64,000 nucleotides of DNA from positions 1 through 64,000 of the IMG/VR virus record IMGVR_UViG_3300022602_002721; one strand, given 5' to 3'. Of this stretch, positions 13,741 to 51,660 are shown piece by piece (the stretch's first letter is position 1; each line of letters opens with the position of its first letter). The position numbers and the translations under genes are program-made. This stretch comes from a virus. The notes below the pieces were generated by a model. The model had not been told where the DNA came from. It did not search any database and was given only the letters and a program-made list of their open reading frames with translations.

Positions 13741-14445
13741 ATGAATATACTATTATCTACCCTAGTGATGGTTCAAATCACTATCGCATGTGTTACCTTA
13801 TATCTACATCGTAGCCAAGCACACCGCGCTGTAACTTTCCACCCTATTATATCACATTTTATGCGTTGCTGGCTTTGGCTAACGACTGGCATGAATACTC
13901 GTGAATGGGTAGCGGTGCATCGTAAACATCATCAGGCAAGTGATACAGAAACGGATCCTCATAGCCCGCGAATATATGGCATATGGCGTGTGTTATTTGG
14001 TGGCGCATTATTATATGTTAAAGCAAAGCAAGATCCAGAAGTAATGAAATTAGGCGTTGGCACACCAGATGATTGGATTGAGCGTCGAGTTTATACACCG
14101 CACCCATTTGGGGGCATAGTAATTATGTTGGTCATAGACCTTGTTCTTTTCGGACCCATAGGACTAATAGTATGGGGCGTACAAATGCTATGGATTCCAT
14201 TTTGGGCTGCGGGTGTAATTAACGGACTAGCACACTGGGTCGGGTATCGTAACTATGATGTAAAAGATACTAGTCGTAACTTATGGCCATTAGGTATATG
14301 GATTGGCGGAGAAGAACTACACAACAATCATCACGGTGAAGGTGCTAGTGCTAAGTTTAGCAAGAAATGGTGGGAGTTTGATATTGGTTGGTTTTATATT
14401 AAAGTTCTAACAATGCTAGGTCTAGCAAAAGTTAGAAGTTCATAG
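13741..14445 (+). CDS. fatty acid desaturase (delta-9 acyl type)
   Basis: 234 residues with the three membrane-desaturase histidine boxes in order: HRSQAH, HRKHH, HNNHH (residues roughly 23, 60 and 200), and several hydrophobic helices. These ligate a di-iron centre that introduces a double bond into acyl chains in the inner membrane. Somewhat shorter than bacterial DesC. It would change host membrane fluidity. Ends in TAG; the 3' end overlaps the converging endopeptidase by 14 nt. Confidence 0.85.
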   Translation: MNILLSTLVMVQITIACVTLYLHRSQAHRAVTFHPIISHFMRCWLWLTTGMNTREWVAVHRKHHQASDTETDPHSPRIYGIWRVLFGGALLYVKAKQDPEVMKLGVGTPDDWIERRVYTPHPFGGIVIMLVIDLVLFGPIGLIVWGVQMLWIPFWAAGVINGLAHWVGYRNYDVKDTSRNLWPLGIWIGGEELHNNHHGEGASAKFSKKWWEFDIGWFYIKVLTMLGLAKVRSS

Positions 14446-15199: not shown

Positions 15200-17242
15200 T
15201 TACTTTTCATGAGCTATGAATTCTCCCTGCCAGTTATCTGGTAGGTCTTGTTGTTTCATAAAGTCGCAACGTTCAATCCATATCTTGTAGTACTTGTCCA
15301 TCTGTCCGCCAAAGTTACCAATTAGCTTTTTACACATAGCGGCCGCTTCGTCAAACTTTTTCTGTTTGTACAAGGCATGCATCAATTCGTGTTGTACTTT
15401 ATCTTTGGTATAATCAGCACCTTTAGTACGTAGTGCTGTGTAAATTAAATCTGCTACAGTTTTACCTTTTGGTTGTAAGTTATCTAATAGCAAGTAAAAG
15501 AAGTTATCTTTGGTACGGTTGTAAGTTTCAGCACCAATGATACATAGCACACCATAAGCCTTACAACGAGCTTCTAAACGAGCAGCGGTTGAAACCATAT
15601 CACCTAAGATGTCATAGCTGTGTCGTTCTGTTGAACCCATCTCACCGATAAATCCAATACCTGAATTACAGCCCCAGCCCATAGCGGCAGGAGGTAATCC
15701 TTGTGCTTCCATTATCTTAGTATACTCGTCTACCTTGTCTAGCATCTCTAAACCTACTTTAACGATAGTGTGAGCGTGGTTAGGATCTTCAATAGGAGCA
15801 CCGTGTATGTGCATTGACGCATCGCCTACGTACTTGATAATCATACCCTTGTTATCTAGCATTGGCTGACTGATAGCATCCATATAACCGTTCATGTACT
15901 TGCCTAGGCCAGCGACGTCATCGCCATAGTGTTCGCCAATAGGTGTAAAGCCACGCAGGTCACTGAACATAACTGATACGTCTTTACGTACACCACGCTT
16001 GATTAGGTCTGGATCTTTTTGTAATAGCTCTACAACTTCTTTACTACAGTAACCTGCAAACTGTTTCTTAATTGCTTGTTTCTGTAAGAACTCGCTTATA
16101 AACTTAACACCATAAGCGTGAAGCATGACCAAAACAAGACCGCCGACCGGAAGAGTCGCATCCACGAGTTGGAGGCCACTGCTATATGCGTATCCACATA
16201 AAGGAATAATAGAGCCAATGATAACAACACCCGATACAATACCAACATAAGTCCACCTTGTTAAAAATAATAATACGAGACCTGCTACCAATAGTCCCAA
16301 TATCTCTGCACCATCTGCCCAGTCAGGACGTTGTATAACCACACCGTTCATCATAGTTCCCACAGTTGCGGCAACTACATCCTGTGGCCATACTGCACCC
16401 TTGCTAGTTGGAATAGGATTACCTATACCTGCGGCAGTTGTTCCTAGGATAACAACAGCACCCTCTAGATCTTTAGGCAAATCGATTAGGCTAACTTGTT
16501 TGTTTTGTTGACTCCAGTCAATCCATATCCTACCCAAGCTGTCCGTGCTTATAGCTCCAAACTTGGGGATACGCATTTTCTCAACACCATTTTCGTTGAG
16601 CTTGACTTGAAAAGTTGAATCGCCGGCCGCAACTCTGAGTGTCTCTAGAGCTATGCTCGGATATAATTTTCCATCGATAGTGGCTATTAATGGTAGACGG
16701 CGATTCACCCCGTCAATCTCTGGCAGTGTGTTAGTTGTTCCAATACCCGCAGCTGGATTTTCTAACGCAGGTATGTTAGCGATCAATCCGGGATATTGAA
16801 GTATAGTATCTAAATAGTTTGCCCCTATTACAGCAGATCCTGGCTGTCTAGGTGTATTCTTTGTTTTCTGCGAAGGAGTATTTGCTAGGACTACAGGGTA
16901 CTTACTTAGAGCTTGACCCAGCGTAGTATCTCCACCAGAGCGATCTTGTTCGGGCATGAGTATATCAAATACAACAAGTCCCGCTCCCCTCTTATATAGA
17001 TCTCGTATAATTTTGGCATATTCAGCTCTCGGTAAAGGCCATTGACCGTATTTGTCTAGTGTTGCTTCATCAATATTTACAGTTACGATATTATTGAATG
17101 TAGGTGCCTTGGATGTAATAAGTGTGTCAAAATAACGTAGTCTTACGCTTTCAACAAATGAGGGATCTGCGATTCGTATGCCCACTACCAACGCTAGAGT
17201 TAATAGAGCAGTCCATGGGCTCAAAAGGATTTTTTTCAGCAT
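15200..17242 (-). CDS. CHASE2 sensor-adenylate/guanylate cyclase, membrane-bound
   Basis: 680 residues. N-terminal helix, periplasmic CHASE2 sensor (VTVNIDEATLDKYGQWPLPR ... GLVVFDILMPEQDR), three transmembrane helices near residues 310-390, then a class III cyclase domain (DVSVMFSDLRGFTPIGE; GMIIKYVGDASMHIHGAP with a metal aspartate; YDILGDMVSTAARLE). It should make cAMP or cGMP in the cytosol in response to a periplasmic signal. TATAAATA lies 4 nt before the ATG. It follows a FecR protein and a curlin gene, so the signal may concern the envelope or amyloid. Confidence 0.85.
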   Translation of the reverse strand: MLKKILLSPWTALLTLALVVGIRIADPSFVESVRLRYFDTLITSKAPTFNNIVTVNIDEATLDKYGQWPLPRAEYAKIIRDLYKRGAGLVVFDILMPEQDRSGGDTTLGQALSKYPVVLANTPSQKTKNTPRQPGSAVIGANYLDTILQYPGLIANIPALENPAAGIGTTNTLPEIDGVNRRLPLIATIDGKLYPSIALETLRVAAGDSTFQVKLNENGVEKMRIPKFGAISTDSLGRIWIDWSQQNKQVSLIDLPKDLEGAVVILGTTAAGIGNPIPTSKGAVWPQDVVAATVGTMMNGVVIQRPDWADGAEILGLLVAGLVLLFLTRWTYVGIVSGVVIIGSIIPLCGYAYSSGLQLVDATLPVGGLVLVMLHAYGVKFISEFLQKQAIKKQFAGYCSKEVVELLQKDPDLIKRGVRKDVSVMFSDLRGFTPIGEHYGDDVAGLGKYMNGYMDAISQPMLDNKGMIIKYVGDASMHIHGAPIEDPNHAHTIVKVGLEMLDKVDEYTKIMEAQGLPPAAMGWGCNSGIGFIGEMGSTERHSYDILGDMVSTAARLEARCKAYGVLCIIGAETYNRTKDNFFYLLLDNLQPKGKTVADLIYTALRTKGADYTKDKVQHELMHALYKQKKFDEAAAMCKKLIGNFGGQMDKYYKIWIERCDFMKQQDLPDNWQGEFIAHEK

Positions 17243-27663: not shown

Positions 27664-27866
27664 TCTTTACCGTCCACTTTATCTAAAGTTTGTTTAGCAT
27701 ACCACCCCATACGACCTTCAGCATCCATACGTTGAATATCTTCTAGGGCTACCCGCATTATTTCATTCTTTTCTTGTAAGGCGTACATTTGATTCCGCAA
27801 GTTGCCAGCCTGGAGCCACGACAGCAACATGCTGGCAAATCTTGCAAGGATCAAATGCCATTCCAT
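27660..27866 (-). CDS. small protein with N-terminal helix, unknown
   Basis: 68 residues. Hydrophobic N-terminus (LILARFASMLLSWLQ) then a coiled-coil-like helix (RNQMYALQEKNEIMRVALED). Could be membrane-associated. Overlaps both neighbours by 4 nt or less. Confidence 0.55.
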   Translation of the reverse strand: MEWHLILARFASMLLSWLQAGNLRNQMYALQEKNEIMRVALEDIQRMDAEGRMGWYAKQTLDKVDGKE

Positions 27867-28696
27867 CAGACCTCAAAGTAGAAGCCAGGGTCAAACGCAT
27901 CGGCTTGTTCTTCCCAACCTGCGTACCCACGTGGGTTACTTAACACACGAGTACCTTCAATCATGTAATCTACAGGATCGTGCATGTGTCCATGTACCCA
28001 ATATTTGATCTGTGGATGATCCATAATGAACTCTGTCAAGTTACTCATATAACCAAAGTTCATGTGGAAGTCATCTTTGTACTTTTCGTTAATGCTCAAA
28101 GGACTTGGGGCATGATGGCTAACCACAACTACCTTATCATCCTTGTGCTCATCAAGAAAGTCTTTCAACTTGCCCACAGTTTCACGGAACACATCTGCAA
28201 CATACGCAGGATTAAACTTGTTGGTGTAATAAGCATCGCCGTACATTGTTTGTACTTTGATACTATCACCGTGTTTAATCACTGAGAAGTCTGCCATGCT
28301 TTGTTTCACAACCTGCATAGTCATAGGATCCTTCTTGTTCATGTCTGTCCAAAAAGTTCCGCCAAAGAAATGCACGTCATCAATCGTGATACCTTCTGCT
28401 TCTAAGAAGTGTACGTTAGCTGGCAACTCTCGTCTCAAGCGAGGGAATGTATCTTCATAGCCGTTATGATAATGTTCGTGATTACCACAAACATAGATAA
28501 CATGACGGTACTTAGGCATTTCCTCATTAAGGAACCTACGATAGCGATCTGCCAAAAATACATTTTGTTTAGCATTATCTGCTTTGCGTAGATGACCTGC
28601 TTCCATGATGTCGCCAGCCATAATCAACACATCGCCACCGGGCATAACAATGTCCTCAAAGTTGATGTGCATATCGCTGACTAAATTAATCTTCAT
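27866..28696 (-). CDS. calcineurin-like metallophosphoesterase
   Basis: 276 residues with all metallophosphoesterase motifs: SDMHIN, AGDIM, CGNHEHYH, VVSHHAPS, HGHMHD. Similar phage enzymes hydrolyse phosphodiesters in nucleotides or nucleic acids. Cytosolic. Substrate unknown. Confidence 0.8.
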   Translation of the reverse strand: MKINLVSDMHINFEDIVMPGGDVLIMAGDIMEAGHLRKADNAKQNVFLADRYRRFLNEEMPKYRHVIYVCGNHEHYHNGYEDTFPRLRRELPANVHFLEAEGITIDDVHFFGGTFWTDMNKKDPMTMQVVKQSMADFSVIKHGDSIKVQTMYGDAYYTNKFNPAYVADVFRETVGKLKDFLDEHKDDKVVVVSHHAPSPLSINEKYKDDFHMNFGYMSNLTEFIMDHPQIKYWVHGHMHDPVDYMIEGTRVLSNPRGYAGWEEQADAFDPGFYFEV

Positions 28697-29192: not shown

Positions 29193-30404
29193 ATGATTAA
29201 GCCAAAAACACAAGATGCGATAGCCAAAAGCCTAGAGAAACTACGCTCAGACGGCAACTACAGAGTGTTTACAGACATACTAAGACAGCGTGGAGATTTT
29301 CCAAAAGCCATTTGGTATGGACGTTACAACATTAAACAAATTACCAATTGGTGCTCAAATGACTATTTGGGCATGGGCCAACACAAAGTAGTATTAGATG
29401 CTATGCACACCGTACTAGATACAGCAGGCGCCGGGTCTGGCGGTACTCGTAACATTAGCGGTACAACACACTATCACGTGGCATTAGAGCGTGAGCTTGC
29501 TACCCTACACGATAAAACAGCCGCACTTACTTTTACCAGCGGATATGTAGCTAACCAAAGTACGCTAAGTGTGCTAGGTAAAGTTTTACCAAACGTACAT
29601 TATATCAGTGATGCCCATAATCATAATTCAATGATCGTTGGAATTAAGTCTAGCCAAACGCCTCGTACTGTTTGGCGACATAACGATCTAAAACATCTTA
29701 AAGAAATACTTCAAAGTTTGGACAGTGACGTTCAACCTATCATCGCTATGGAAGGTGTTTACTCCATGGATGGCGATAAAGGATTAATCAGTGATGTATG
29801 CGAAATCGCTCGCATGTACGGCGCAATGGTCTATGTTGACGAAGTTCATGCTGTTGGGCTATATGGTGCTCGAGGTGCAGGTGTAGCTGAAGAACAGTTC
29901 TGTGTAGACGGTGTGGATGTAATACAAGGCACACTAGCCAAAGCATTTGGTGTGCAAGGCGGTTATATCGCTGCAGGCCGTGATCTAGTTGATATGATCC
30001 GTAGCTATGCACAGGGCTTAATCTTTAGTACATCGATGGCTCCTGTGCTGTGTGCTGGTGCATTAGCCAGTGTTAAGTATGTACAAGACCATCCAGAGCT
30101 ACGCACAAAGATTATGACTGTTGCAGAAATGACCAGACAGCATTTAAAAGCTGCTGGCTTAGAAGTTAACCCACTATCAGAAGGCGGACATATTGTTCCT
30201 GTAATGGTACGTGATGCTAAGAAGTGTAAAGCGATCTCAGATTGGTTGCTAGAGCAATACGGGATTTACCTTCAGCCAATAAATTCTCCAACGGTCTCCT
30301 GGGGCACTGAAAGATTACGGGCCTGCCCAACTCCTAATCATACAGAAGCAGATATATACTTGTTGGCCGAAGCATTAAAAGATGCTTTTGAAAAATATAA
30401 ATAA
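29193..30404 (+). CDS. hemA: 5-aminolevulinate synthase (Shemin pathway)
   Basis: 403 residues, typical length. Fold-type I PLP enzyme of the alpha-oxoamine synthase family: WCSNDYLGMGQH, SGGTRNISGTTHYH, VYVDEVHAVGLYG, and the PLP-lysine motif GTLAKAFGVQGGYIA. ALAS condenses glycine and succinyl-CoA to 5-aminolevulinate, the committed step of heme synthesis in alphaproteobacteria. Along with heme oxygenase and PcyX 5 kb away, it would supply heme for bilin production. Phage-borne ALAS has been reported from aquatic sequences. Confidence 0.9.
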   Translation: MIKPKTQDAIAKSLEKLRSDGNYRVFTDILRQRGDFPKAIWYGRYNIKQITNWCSNDYLGMGQHKVVLDAMHTVLDTAGAGSGGTRNISGTTHYHVALERELATLHDKTAALTFTSGYVANQSTLSVLGKVLPNVHYISDAHNHNSMIVGIKSSQTPRTVWRHNDLKHLKEILQSLDSDVQPIIAMEGVYSMDGDKGLISDVCEIARMYGAMVYVDEVHAVGLYGARGAGVAEEQFCVDGVDVIQGTLAKAFGVQGGYIAAGRDLVDMIRSYAQGLIFSTSMAPVLCAGALASVKYVQDHPELRTKIMTVAEMTRQHLKAAGLEVNPLSEGGHIVPVMVRDAKKCKAISDWLLEQYGIYLQPINSPTVSWGTERLRACPTPNHTEADIYLLAEALKDAFEKYK

Positions 30405-40547: not shown

Positions 40548-40624
40548 TGGTGCGTTGGATGGGAATCGAACCCACTACATGATGATTTAGAGTCACCTGC
40601 CCTTACCTTACGGGCTACCAACGC
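40548..40624 (-). tRNA. amber-reading tRNA (CUA anticodon)
   Basis: Complete cloverleaf: acceptor GCGUUGG/CCAACGC, discriminator A, encoded CCA; D-stem GCCC/GGGC; anticodon stem GGUGA/UCAUC around loop CUCUAAA, giving CUA; T-arm GUGGG-UUCGAUU-CCCAU. CUA pairs with UAG. It lies alone, 39 kb from the array. The charged amino acid cannot be told from sequence; the anticodon arm looks lysine-like. Confidence 0.88.
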
Positions 40625-44762: not shown

Positions 44763-45755
44763 TTATTCTACCAAATTATCTTTGAATATTTGCCAAGCCC
44801 GTTCCCAGGTCCAACGTAAACTGCCTTTATACACACGATCTCTATCCAATTGTAAACAAGCATCTACAGCAGATTTTAGATCTTCATTCATGAATCCTGT
44901 AACACCCTGTTCTATAACATCTTCTGGGCCTTGGCACGGGTAAGAAGCTACAGGAGTTCCGCAGGCCATTGCTTCAATCATAACAATGCCAAATGTTTCC
45001 CATTGGCTAGGGAACACAAATACTTCTGCATTGGCATAATAACGTGCTAGATCTACTCCTGTCTTAAATCCTGTAAAATGTACGTCAGGATACTTTTTCT
45101 TATAAGTTTCTAGCATAGGTCCATCACCGACCATGATTTTTAAATAGCCAGGGTAATCTAATTCAAAGAATTGTTCAAGATTTTTTTCTTTGCTCACACG
45201 GCTAACGCACAATAGATATTTGCTAGGTAAATCTTCTCTAAGATCGGGAGTAAAGATTGAACGGTCAACACCACGTGTCCAAGGAATAACTTCTGTATCA
45301 AAACCGTGAGCTTGTAATTCAGCGACCATGCTGTCTGTAGTGGTTAGAACTTTGCCGCTATGTTTATGGAACCAGCGAACAAACCGCCAAGTTAAAGATT
45401 CAGGAATACCAAAAAGTTTTTTAAGACCTTCAGGGAATTTAGTATGATAAGCAGTATTGTACTTCCTACCAACCAGTGAAAGATATTTTCTACTCCACAG
45501 ACCAATAGGACCCTCTGTGGCGATATGGATATGATCCGGACTGAGCGCCGCAATCTTCTTGCCCACCGCCCTGGGATAGCTAATCTTAACTTCAGAGTAG
45601 CCAGGGCAATCAATGTAGCTGAAGCTCCTGGGATCAAGGTAAACAACGTTATAACCGTCCAGAACCGCACATGCTTCAATGTTCTTGTAAGTAGTGACAA
45701 CGCCATTTATCTGGTCCGGTAAATTATCTGTTATTATCAGTATTGTCTTTGTCAT
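44763..45755 (-). CDS. agt: glycosyltransferase GT4, Agt-like
   Basis: 330 residues. N-terminal GINGVVTTY-like PDQINGVVTTYKNIE, PDHIHIATEGPIGLW, and C-terminal ETFGIVMIEAMACGTPVASY (E-x7-E of retaining GT4). Family includes diacylglycerol glycosyltransferases. It overlaps the plcP-like gene by 32 nt on the same transcript, the arrangement used by bacteria to replace phospholipids with glycolipids under phosphate starvation. Substrate inferred from this pairing. Confidence 0.72.
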   Translation of the reverse strand: MTKTILIITDNLPDQINGVVTTYKNIEACAVLDGYNVVYLDPRSFSYIDCPGYSEVKISYPRAVGKKIAALSPDHIHIATEGPIGLWSRKYLSLVGRKYNTAYHTKFPEGLKKLFGIPESLTWRFVRWFHKHSGKVLTTTDSMVAELQAHGFDTEVIPWTRGVDRSIFTPDLREDLPSKYLLCVSRVSKEKNLEQFFELDYPGYLKIMVGDGPMLETYKKKYPDVHFTGFKTGVDLARYYANAEVFVFPSQWETFGIVMIEAMACGTPVASYPCQGPEDVIEQGVTGFMNEDLKSAVDACLQLDRDRVYKGSLRWTWERAWQIFKDNLVE

Positions 45756-46503
45756 TCGCCTGCATCCATGTTACTATTTCCCAACGACCATCGTGATGTT
45801 CTACTAAGGCTGTCATTGACTCGACCCAATCACCATCATTCATATAAGTGATGCCATCAATGTCCTTAATTTCAGCGTGATGGATGTGTCCACAGATAAC
45901 ACCATCAAAACCACGCTTACGACAATAGCGAACAAGATTAAGCTCAAACTGAAACATAAAGTCAGCGGCCTTCTTAACCTTATGCTTGAGAAACTTAGAT
46001 AAGCTCCAATAACCAAACCCCATACGGTGACGGAGCCAATTGAACTTACTGTTAACAGAGAGTACAAAGTCATACAGTCTATCCCCTAAAAATGATAACC
46101 ACGGTGCTAGTCTAGTGATACCATCAAATAGGTCACCGTGTGTAACCAAGTAATGTTTTCCATCTATACCTATGTGTTCAGTTTGGTTCGCTACTTCAAT
46201 TAAGCCAAAGCCAATACCATACGGCATTAGGGGTCTTAAGAATTCATCATGATTGCCAGCGATATAAACAACACGGGTGCCACGTTTGGCATGTCCCATA
46301 ATACGTCTAACCACATTAGTATGTGATTGTTTCCATCGCCACTTGTTTTGTTGTATGCGCCATGCGTCAATTATGTCCCCTACCATGTAGAGTGTTTCGC
46401 ATGTGTTGTGTTTGAGAAAGTTATTGAGTTGTTCCGCTTTACAATCGCGGGTCCCAAGATGTACGTCTGAAATAAAAATGCTGCGATAAGTTTTGAGCGT
46501 CAT
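45724..46503 (-). CDS. plcP: PlcP-like phospholipase C (metallophosphoesterase)
   Basis: About 259 residues. Motifs TYRSIFISDVHLGTRDCKAE, LYMVGDIIDAWRI, YIAGNHDEFLRP, THGDLFD and CGHIHH. The N-terminal SIFISDVHLGTR and the GDWVES end fit the PlcP branch better than true LpxH. PlcP cleaves phospholipid headgroups to give diacylglycerol. A GATAAATA late-like motif lies 5 nt before ATG 46503, without SD. Confidence 0.78.
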   Translation of the reverse strand: MTLKTYRSIFISDVHLGTRDCKAEQLNNFLKHNTCETLYMVGDIIDAWRIQQNKWRWKQSHTNVVRRIMGHAKRGTRVVYIAGNHDEFLRPLMPYGIGFGLIEVANQTEHIGIDGKHYLVTHGDLFDGITRLAPWLSFLGDRLYDFVLSVNSKFNWLRHRMGFGYWSLSKFLKHKVKKAADFMFQFELNLVRYCRKRGFDGVICGHIHHAEIKDIDGITYMNDGDWVESMTALVEHHDGRWEIVTWMQANDKDNTDNNR

Positions 46504-46554
46504 GCCCATATTTATCGCAGCATAGTGATACTAAGATTAAAGTTTTGTTACGAC

Positions 46555-46713
46555 TTAGATCCTTACCACGGTCCATTTAGTATCAAATGGTTTGCCTTCG
46601 GCGCGGTGCTTTAGTATCTTACGGAATTCTTCTTTGCGAAGTTCCATAATTGCATCTTCATCGTGTCGGAAGCAAGCCTTATACAACTTACGAACTAATT
46701 TCGCTTGTTTCAT
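46555..46713 (-). CDS. small basic protein, 52 aa
   Basis: ATG 46713 with perfect SD AAGGAGG, TAA 46555. [19 protein letters not shown], then [19 protein letters not shown]: helical and charged. Preceded by CATAAATA (46735-46742). Function unknown. Confidence 0.65.
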
Positions 46714-51272: not shown

Positions 51273-51302
51273 AGTATATATCCAGGATACTACTGATGTC
51301 AA
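51273..51302 (-). promoter_or_regulatory. promoter of outer-membrane protein gene
   Basis: TTGACA, 18-nt spacer, TATACT, directly after the tmRNA terminator. Confidence 0.7.
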
Positions 51303-51314
51303 GTAAATTTGGGT

Positions 51315-51625
51315 CAAAGAAAAAGCACCCGAAGGTGCTTTTTGGTATTTTCTGTTACGAGGTATTTCCTACCCTAGTCAGCTGTTAAGCTGCCAATGCG
51401 TAAACGTTGTCGTTTGCGTTTATAGGTTTTGCTTGATTTACAGTCATCGCCTACTGTGTTGCCGTCTTCACTATCTCACCATGTCGAAACCAGGTCATCC
51501 CCATCAAAAACACATTCTGTTACATGTCACCGTTTCGCGCCTACGGTCGAATATGTTTTTGGTGGAGATGGGCGGAATCGAACCGCCGTCCACAGCGCCT
51601 TTGATCCAAAGGAATTACAACAATT
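51315..51625 (-). ncRNA. ssrA: circularly permuted two-piece tmRNA
   Basis: On the minus strand the acceptor half comes first: T-arm GGCGG-UUCGAUU-CCGCC and CAUCUCC-ACCA ending at 51560. After a 57-nt spacer the coding half begins at 51502 with GGGGAUG, which pairs perfectly with CAUCUCC. The tag ORF (51417-51385) reads ANDNVYALAA then TAA. A terminator hairpin (AAAAAGCACC...GGUGCUUUUU) ends it near 51315. The promoter is a perfect consensus. tmRNA tags stalled proteins for proteolysis; permuted genes are known from alphaproteobacteria, some betaproteobacteria and cyanobacteria. Confidence 0.92.
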
Positions 51626-51631
51626 ACTGCT

Positions 51632-51660
51632 ATTATACATTTATTTTAATAGTCTGTCAA
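51632..51660 (-). promoter_or_regulatory. tmRNA promoter, perfect consensus
   Basis: TTGACA, 17-nt spacer, TATAAT; the predicted start is near 51625. Confidence 0.85.

Follow-up and report, generated by a model that had tools for sequence, protein, structure and literature searches.

A probable phage-borne PlcP-Agt lipid-remodelling operon with a Pho-box-like repeat and a start-codon hairpin

In a stretch of 64,000 nucleotides of viral DNA (hereafter the window; part of the 71,687-bp IMG/VR virus record IMGVR_UViG_3300022602_002721), a gene for a metallophosphoesterase overlaps one for a glycosyltransferase, which raises the question of what such a pair would do for a phage and under which conditions it would be switched on. 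The initial annotation had proposed a PlcP-type phosphoesterase overlapping a GT4 glycosyltransferase, and both ORFs were indeed found at that site on the minus strand (Table 1), supported by the Pfam models PF00149 Metallophos (44 bits) and PF00534 Glycos_transf_1 (88 bits), respectively. The ORFs share 32 bp, with the start codon of the glycosyltransferase gene lying within the 3' end of plcP. Downstream of the pair follow NAD salvage genes (NMN adenylyltransferase/Nudix and nicotinamide phosphoribosyltransferase); homologs of the 52-aa ORF on its other side are located upstream of plcP in other phages too, and transcripts of this small ORF could read through into plcP. The best explanation, which we consider probable, is a phage-borne PlcP-Agt operon for lipid remodelling that would be switched by PhoB and guarded by a hairpin. 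It builds on homology, gene order, purifying selection, a repeat upstream of plcP, the phasing of this repeat and the covariation of the hairpin, all of which can be read from the sequences themselves.

Table 1. Positions of the plcP-agt pair, its control elements and other features in the window.
Feature	Position	Strand	Remarks
Putative agt, GT4-type diacylglycerol glycosyltransferase (P0001)	44763-45755	minus	330 aa; homology
plcP-like ORF, metallophosphoesterase (P0002)	45724-46509	minus	261 aa; Pfam, identity, tree, motifs
Hairpin, 3' arm	46478-46489	minus	TTATCGCAGCAT; within the YRSIF codons of plcP
TAAATA promoter element (-10 / T4-late-like)	46509-46514	minus	16 bp on from where the last half-site starts
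Hairpin, 5' arm	46512-46523	minus	ATGCTGCGATAA; overlaps TAAATA
Degenerate Pho-box-like element	46525-46552	minus	CGTAAC / TTTAAT / TATCAC, 11-bp period; each 5/6 to TGT[AC]A[CT]
Small ORF directly upstream of plcP	46555-46713	minus	52 aa; strong Shine-Dalgarno
Fatty acid desaturase	13741-14445	plus	PF00487
CHASE2 sensor with class III nucleotide cyclase	15200-17242	minus	other phages have copies (83% identity) close to plcP
Second calcineurin-type phosphoesterase	27866-28696	minus	weak cAMP-phosphodiesterase (CpdA) match
tRNA, anticodon CTA (ARAGORN, labelled tRNA-Pyl)	40548-40624	minus	possibly an amber suppressor tRNA
tmRNA-like gene	51294-51652	minus	tag ANDNVYALAA

The hexamer TAAATA is depleted in the window (37 occurrences vs. 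84 expected) and yet precedes about 18 genes. Six of them, including plcP, have it 5-13 bp ahead of the start and show no Shine-Dalgarno motif, a combination that suggests leaderless mRNAs and, with them, a leaderless gene class in this phage; plcP itself, before whose ATG no Shine-Dalgarno motif was found, probably has its own short leaderless promoter. The other five such genes are at 17242, 23335, 35663 and 44705 on the minus strand and at 29193 on the plus strand, with TAAATA 10-13 bp before their starts. No enrichment of the T4 late consensus TATAAATA was seen across the window, and 22 of the 107 phage plcP upstream regions, among them those of some of the closest relatives (L005-L007, L010), have no TAAATA promoter.

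Before phage plcP genes we found the repeat TGT[AC]A[CT]-N5-TGT[AC]A[CT], with a period of 11 bp, which shares its geometry (7-N4-7, 11-bp period) with the Pho box, quoted as CTGTCATNNNNCTGTCAT (PMC8528852). An exact pair of half-sites at 11 bp occurs in 41 of the 107 distinct plcP upstream regions vs. 0.04 per shuffled set, a comparison which, like our other shuffle statistics, overstates independence because the plcP rows are interrelated; any other half-site spacing up to 40 bp occurs at most twice among these regions. The stronger controls are the pstS genes and an unbiased scan. Of 1917 other genes at the same loci only nine have the exact pair upstream: the six pstS genes without exception, plus one small gene family in three copies. 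The scan of 17 phage records, none of them chosen for having the repeat, returned five sites that were both exact and in phase. Four of them precede plcP, one of these being a second plcP copy in a 525-kb record, and the fifth precedes a member of the small gene family; as a control, the pattern was reversed and then gave no site in the same records. In fixed phase to TAAATA, the half-site pair agrees with the pattern in 10 or more of its 12 letters in 78 of 85 promoters; shuffles reach this level in 0.8% of cases, and of 443 other genes preceded by TAAATA it is reached by 22. The search for Pho boxes thus revealed a Pho-box-like repeat ahead of the plcP and pstS genes of phages, of which the window has a degenerate copy, in phase with TAAATA (P ~1e-4; 20,000 shuffles). 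When up to one mismatch is allowed, the box shows no enrichment across the whole window, so the case for this copy lies in its phasing and in its relatives. The exact E. coli Pho-box consensus, also tried as a candidate, showed merely a modest excess in phages, where the half-site is mostly TGTAAC/T.

The repeat was also seen before other types of genes. An outer-membrane beta-barrel-like protein (L110:157-711), possibly a phage phosphate porin, has an exact phased copy, and strong Pho-box-like repeats precede members of a small Ala/Val-rich protein family (L084:4198-4845, L102:6027-6719, L122:6090-6743, L129:6029-6724), the L084 member having three perfect half-sites.

Which protein would read the repeat? 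It may be bound by the host regulator PhoB, as its resemblance to the Pho box suggests, although Pho-box predictions in phage genomes have failed in experiment (PMC10976474). Alternatively, the repeats might be sites for a phage-encoded, MotA-like activator of a middle or late promoter. That TAAATA is a phage promoter element, standing before many window genes despite its overall depletion, would fit such an activator; the confinement of the repeat to plcP and pstS, besides a few small genes, does not, nor does the occurrence of the same repeat, including its TGTAAT form, in some bacterial pstS promoters. Moreover, no OmpR/PhoB-type DNA-binding domain was found in 17 phage records, which makes a host protein the likely reader, and we therefore regard a phage-encoded activator as unlikely. 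A related counterpoint is that TAAATA could be a late promoter of the phage, recognized by a sigma factor of its own, and host PhoB might have no effect there.

The same repeat bears on the purpose of the pair. A true PlcP-Agt pair could have modification of the envelope (its charge, receptor, superinfection exclusion or resistance to membrane-active agents) as its main purpose, rather than the gain of phosphate. In P. aeruginosa, lipid remodelling is known to alter membrane proteins as well as the sensitivity to polymyxin (PMC8528852; PMC9804370), and a fatty acid desaturase gene, possibly a further lipid-remodelling gene of the same phage, is present in the window and in many related phages, 26 of whose loci have one no more than 5 kb from plcP. 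However, a Pho-box-like element before both plcP and pstS ties the pair to phosphate, and a role mainly in the envelope appears to us rather improbable. PstS of the PBP type is encoded near plcP in six phage loci, which are distinct from the 17 phage records, where TIGR00975 detected no PstS; within the 71.7-kb record of the window there was no match to pstS or phoH.

Returning to the proposed PlcP-Agt operon, a second, putative control element encloses the plcP start codon. In the window an inverted repeat, perfect over 12 bp (z -4.8), surrounds it, and stems of at least 8 bp around the start occur in 47 of 85 phage plcP genes vs. about 1 of 85 after shuffling and 6 of 166 other genes with TAAATA. 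The arms belong to several unrelated sequence types (z -3.2 to -8.0). In the main type they covary, with 26 cells changed on both sides vs. 14.4 expected, a score exceeding all 500 shuffles and all slid versions. The start region is thus predicted to lie in a hairpin whose 5' arm overlaps the promoter, as in T4 late genes. This arm lies across or ahead of the promoter element, so transcripts beginning at TAAATA cannot fold the hairpin, whereas read-through transcripts can; by analogy with T4, the folded hairpin would block translation.

The reading of the first gene as plcP was examined by identity, phylogeny and motifs. The window protein is 54% identical over 233 aa to a P. aeruginosa protein (L164) and 48% identical to a S. 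meliloti protein (L162). From the neighbors azoR3, a tRNA-binding protein and cyaB we take the L164 locus to be PA3219/PA3218; likewise, the acyl-homoserine-lactone synthase and LuxR regulator (sinI/sinR) beside the L162 gene lead us to assume that it encodes the characterized S. meliloti PlcP. The two proteins are 47% identical to each other, in agreement with the 46% published for PA3219 and S. meliloti PlcP (Jones 2021, PMC8528852), which fits this identification. The L162 sequence (CP090106.1) is titled S. meliloti pSymB, at 3.7 Mb carries an apparently chromosomal sinI/sinR-plcP locus, and seems to be mislabelled. The metal-site residues D15, H17, D45, N86, H124, H208 and H210 are all retained in the window protein.

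Database annotations suggest another pair of functions, an LpxH-like UDP-diacylglucosamine hydrolase with an LPS or polysaccharide glycosyltransferase acting in serotype conversion. LpxH (UDP-2,3-diacylglucosamine diphosphatase) shares the calcineurin-like phosphoesterase fold, is the best NCBIfam model for the window protein, and gives its name to relatives in named phages and plasmids. Nevertheless, the LpxH models, the only NCBIfam matches, score 48 and 38 bits against cut-offs of 134 and 190; the characterized PlcP proteins score equally low, while E. coli LpxH reaches 389 bits and is just 23% identical to the window protein over 120 aa. In a maximum-likelihood tree of 118 proteins, in which the LpxH rows come largely from the same bacterial genomes as the PlcP rows, LpxH is split from all PlcP-type and phage proteins with 100/100 support, and the phage rows fall among the PlcP-type rows. 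Nearly all PlcP-type proteins, phage and bacterial alike, have GNHDE and CGHIH, and all LpxH have GNRDF and HGHTH; the window protein has the former two and lacks the latter two. By tree and motifs, the window phosphoesterase thus belongs to the PlcP group, apart from LpxH, as the initial annotation had assumed; the LpxH alternative is largely refuted and, in our estimate, very improbable. Homology to the characterized enzymes predicts release of the headgroup from phospholipids.

The phage PlcP lineage appears old and distinct, since none of the bacterial relatives retained from the genome scan, all of them Pseudomonadota, exceeds 57% identity to the window protein, compared with 80-91% for the best phage relatives. 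The contig L172 (NZ_JAQSCU010000013.1, titled Methylotenera sp. MAG) was considered as a bacterial plcP donor and rejected, having small, tightly packed ORFs and clustering with phages. It also holds a chromosomal pstS and may be a prophage-like region, which hints at a Methylophilaceae host or prophage.

For the glycosyltransferase, too, the nearest non-viral relatives are Agt-type enzymes whose genes directly follow bacterial plcP and not the more distant GT4 enzymes of the same genomes. The window protein is 39% identical over its full length to P. aeruginosa Agt1, which is itself 41% identical to Phaeobacter Agt (PMC8528852). Of 84 bacterial plcP loci, 52 have a relative next to plcP, usually as the gene immediately downstream, and in 8 of 12 whole bacterial genomes the best match to the window protein is the gene directly 3' of plcP. 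Since a tree with very long outgroup branches was uninformative, it was redone with fewer rows; three more distant GT4 enzymes then fell outside the phage and plcP-adjacent group (98/98), and the phage enzymes formed one clade on a long branch, forking among the Agt types (Agt1/Agt2) in an order that the tree leaves open. With this branching the sugar is not confidently predicted, and glucose, by extension from Agt1, is a guess. The enzyme would be expected to make a glycolipid (MGDG or GADG) from diacylglycerol; with 39-54% identity to characterized enzymes, the function of the pair as a whole is an inference.

Purifying selection acts on the pair, which forms a conserved cassette in phages. 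Relatives of plcP are present on at least 597 viral stretches and those of the glycosyltransferase on at least 332, which speaks against chance ORFs; 122 of 160 viral loci have plcP and GT4 together, on the same strand and in the same order, often with an overlap of 25-28 bp. Where computable, the ratio dN/dS is about 0.05 for plcP and 0.07-0.18 for the glycosyltransferase. Passive carriage of host genes without function in the phage, for which the shared gene order in bacterial relatives might speak, is disfavored by the hundreds of viral copies, the low dN/dS, the phage-specific promoter and the covarying hairpin, and is hardly credible. We describe the carriers as large freshwater-type phages. 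Their contigs reach 525 kb, some spanning 260-525 kb, and a T4-type gp23 capsid protein is encoded in 9 of 17 virus records searched. In loci without GT4, a GT2 enzyme occupies the same place directly downstream of plcP. A RimK-like ATP-grasp enzyme occurs in 19 loci, mostly between plcP and GT4 (e.g., L070:1970-2860); this ligase might attach an amino acid to the lipid or the sugar. Elsewhere in the window, the nucleotide cyclase and the CpdA-like phosphoesterase (Table 1) are possibly a phage pair for making and breaking cyclic nucleotides.

Taken as a mechanism, the preferred explanation runs as follows; the enzyme activities, PhoB binding, the translation block and the benefit to the phage are what we infer in it. 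Upon phosphate starvation, host PhoB would turn on plcP-agt from its own promoter, as the sequence pattern suggests. PlcP, judged by its homologs, would cut the phosphorylated headgroup off host phospholipids and leave diacylglycerol, to which the GT4 enzyme, again by homology, would attach a sugar (probably glucose); the product would be a glycolipid free of phosphorus, so that the membrane would stay intact and its lipid mass would be kept. The freed phosphate might then be available for phage DNA synthesis. In phosphate-rich cells the hairpin would keep read-through RNA from upstream phage genes untranslated, as covariation and the T4 precedent suggest. A more specific version, towards which we lean only slightly, is a two-input switch in which PhoB would activate the pair only in phosphate-starved cells and the hairpin would silence transcripts of the ordinary programme; together with pstS, the pair would then form a small phage Pho regulon mining host membranes.

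To our knowledge, the phage phosphate genes described so far serve the uptake or handling of phosphate. The host membrane is a large cellular store of phosphorus, and if our explanation is true, the pair takes phosphate from it and replaces the lost lipids instead of breaking the membrane; an infected cell may thus be made to yield membrane phosphate under phosphate scarcity. The paired control elements would be a direct and testable link between environmental phosphate and the membrane chemistry of infected cells, and could distort what lipids indicate about phosphorus stress in lakes. The family is present in hundreds of viral contigs; database entries for its relatives bear the LpxH annotation.

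It is already known that bacterial plcP often forms an operon with a glycosyltransferase gene and has a Pho box (PMC4796936), and that host PhoB controls cyanophage genes; a Pho-box-like repeat phased to TAAATA upstream of phage plcP is new here. No report of a phage PlcP-Agt was found in the open-access literature searched. Among phages, a close likeness is Mosig_00120 of Pelagibacter phage Mosig EXVC030M, a 47% identical PlcP-type protein encoded beside a gene annotated as phosphate ABC transporter; it is, however, annotated as LpxH-like, and no Agt relative was found in the Mosig genome. The cyanophage Pho genes (P-SSM2 pstS, S-PM2d; PMC10976474) are likewise phage genes under host PhoB, but they are other genes, with cyanobacterial hosts and a different box consensus, and the text of that study contains neither the word PlcP nor the word lipid. 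In T4 gene e and I-TevI, the promoter lies in the 5' arm of a hairpin, so that folding, and with it silencing, is limited to transcripts that start at promoters further upstream (PMC3014915; PMC2988022); the phage plcP promoter differs from these by its additional Pho-box-like repeat and by having no Shine-Dalgarno motif. S. meliloti PlcP shares the signatures of the window protein, although no agt follows directly 3' in the L162 locus. A close, characterized counterpart is plcP-agt1 (PA3219-PA3218) of P. aeruginosa, whose products make monoglucosyldiacylglycerol according to mutants, expression and enzyme assay (Jones 2021, PMC8528852). Its genes belong to the same families as the window pair (54 and 39% identity), stand in the same order, overlap, and have a reported Pho box upstream; this pair is bacterial, whereas the phage version has a TAAATA promoter, a start-codon hairpin and TGTAAC/T-rich boxes.
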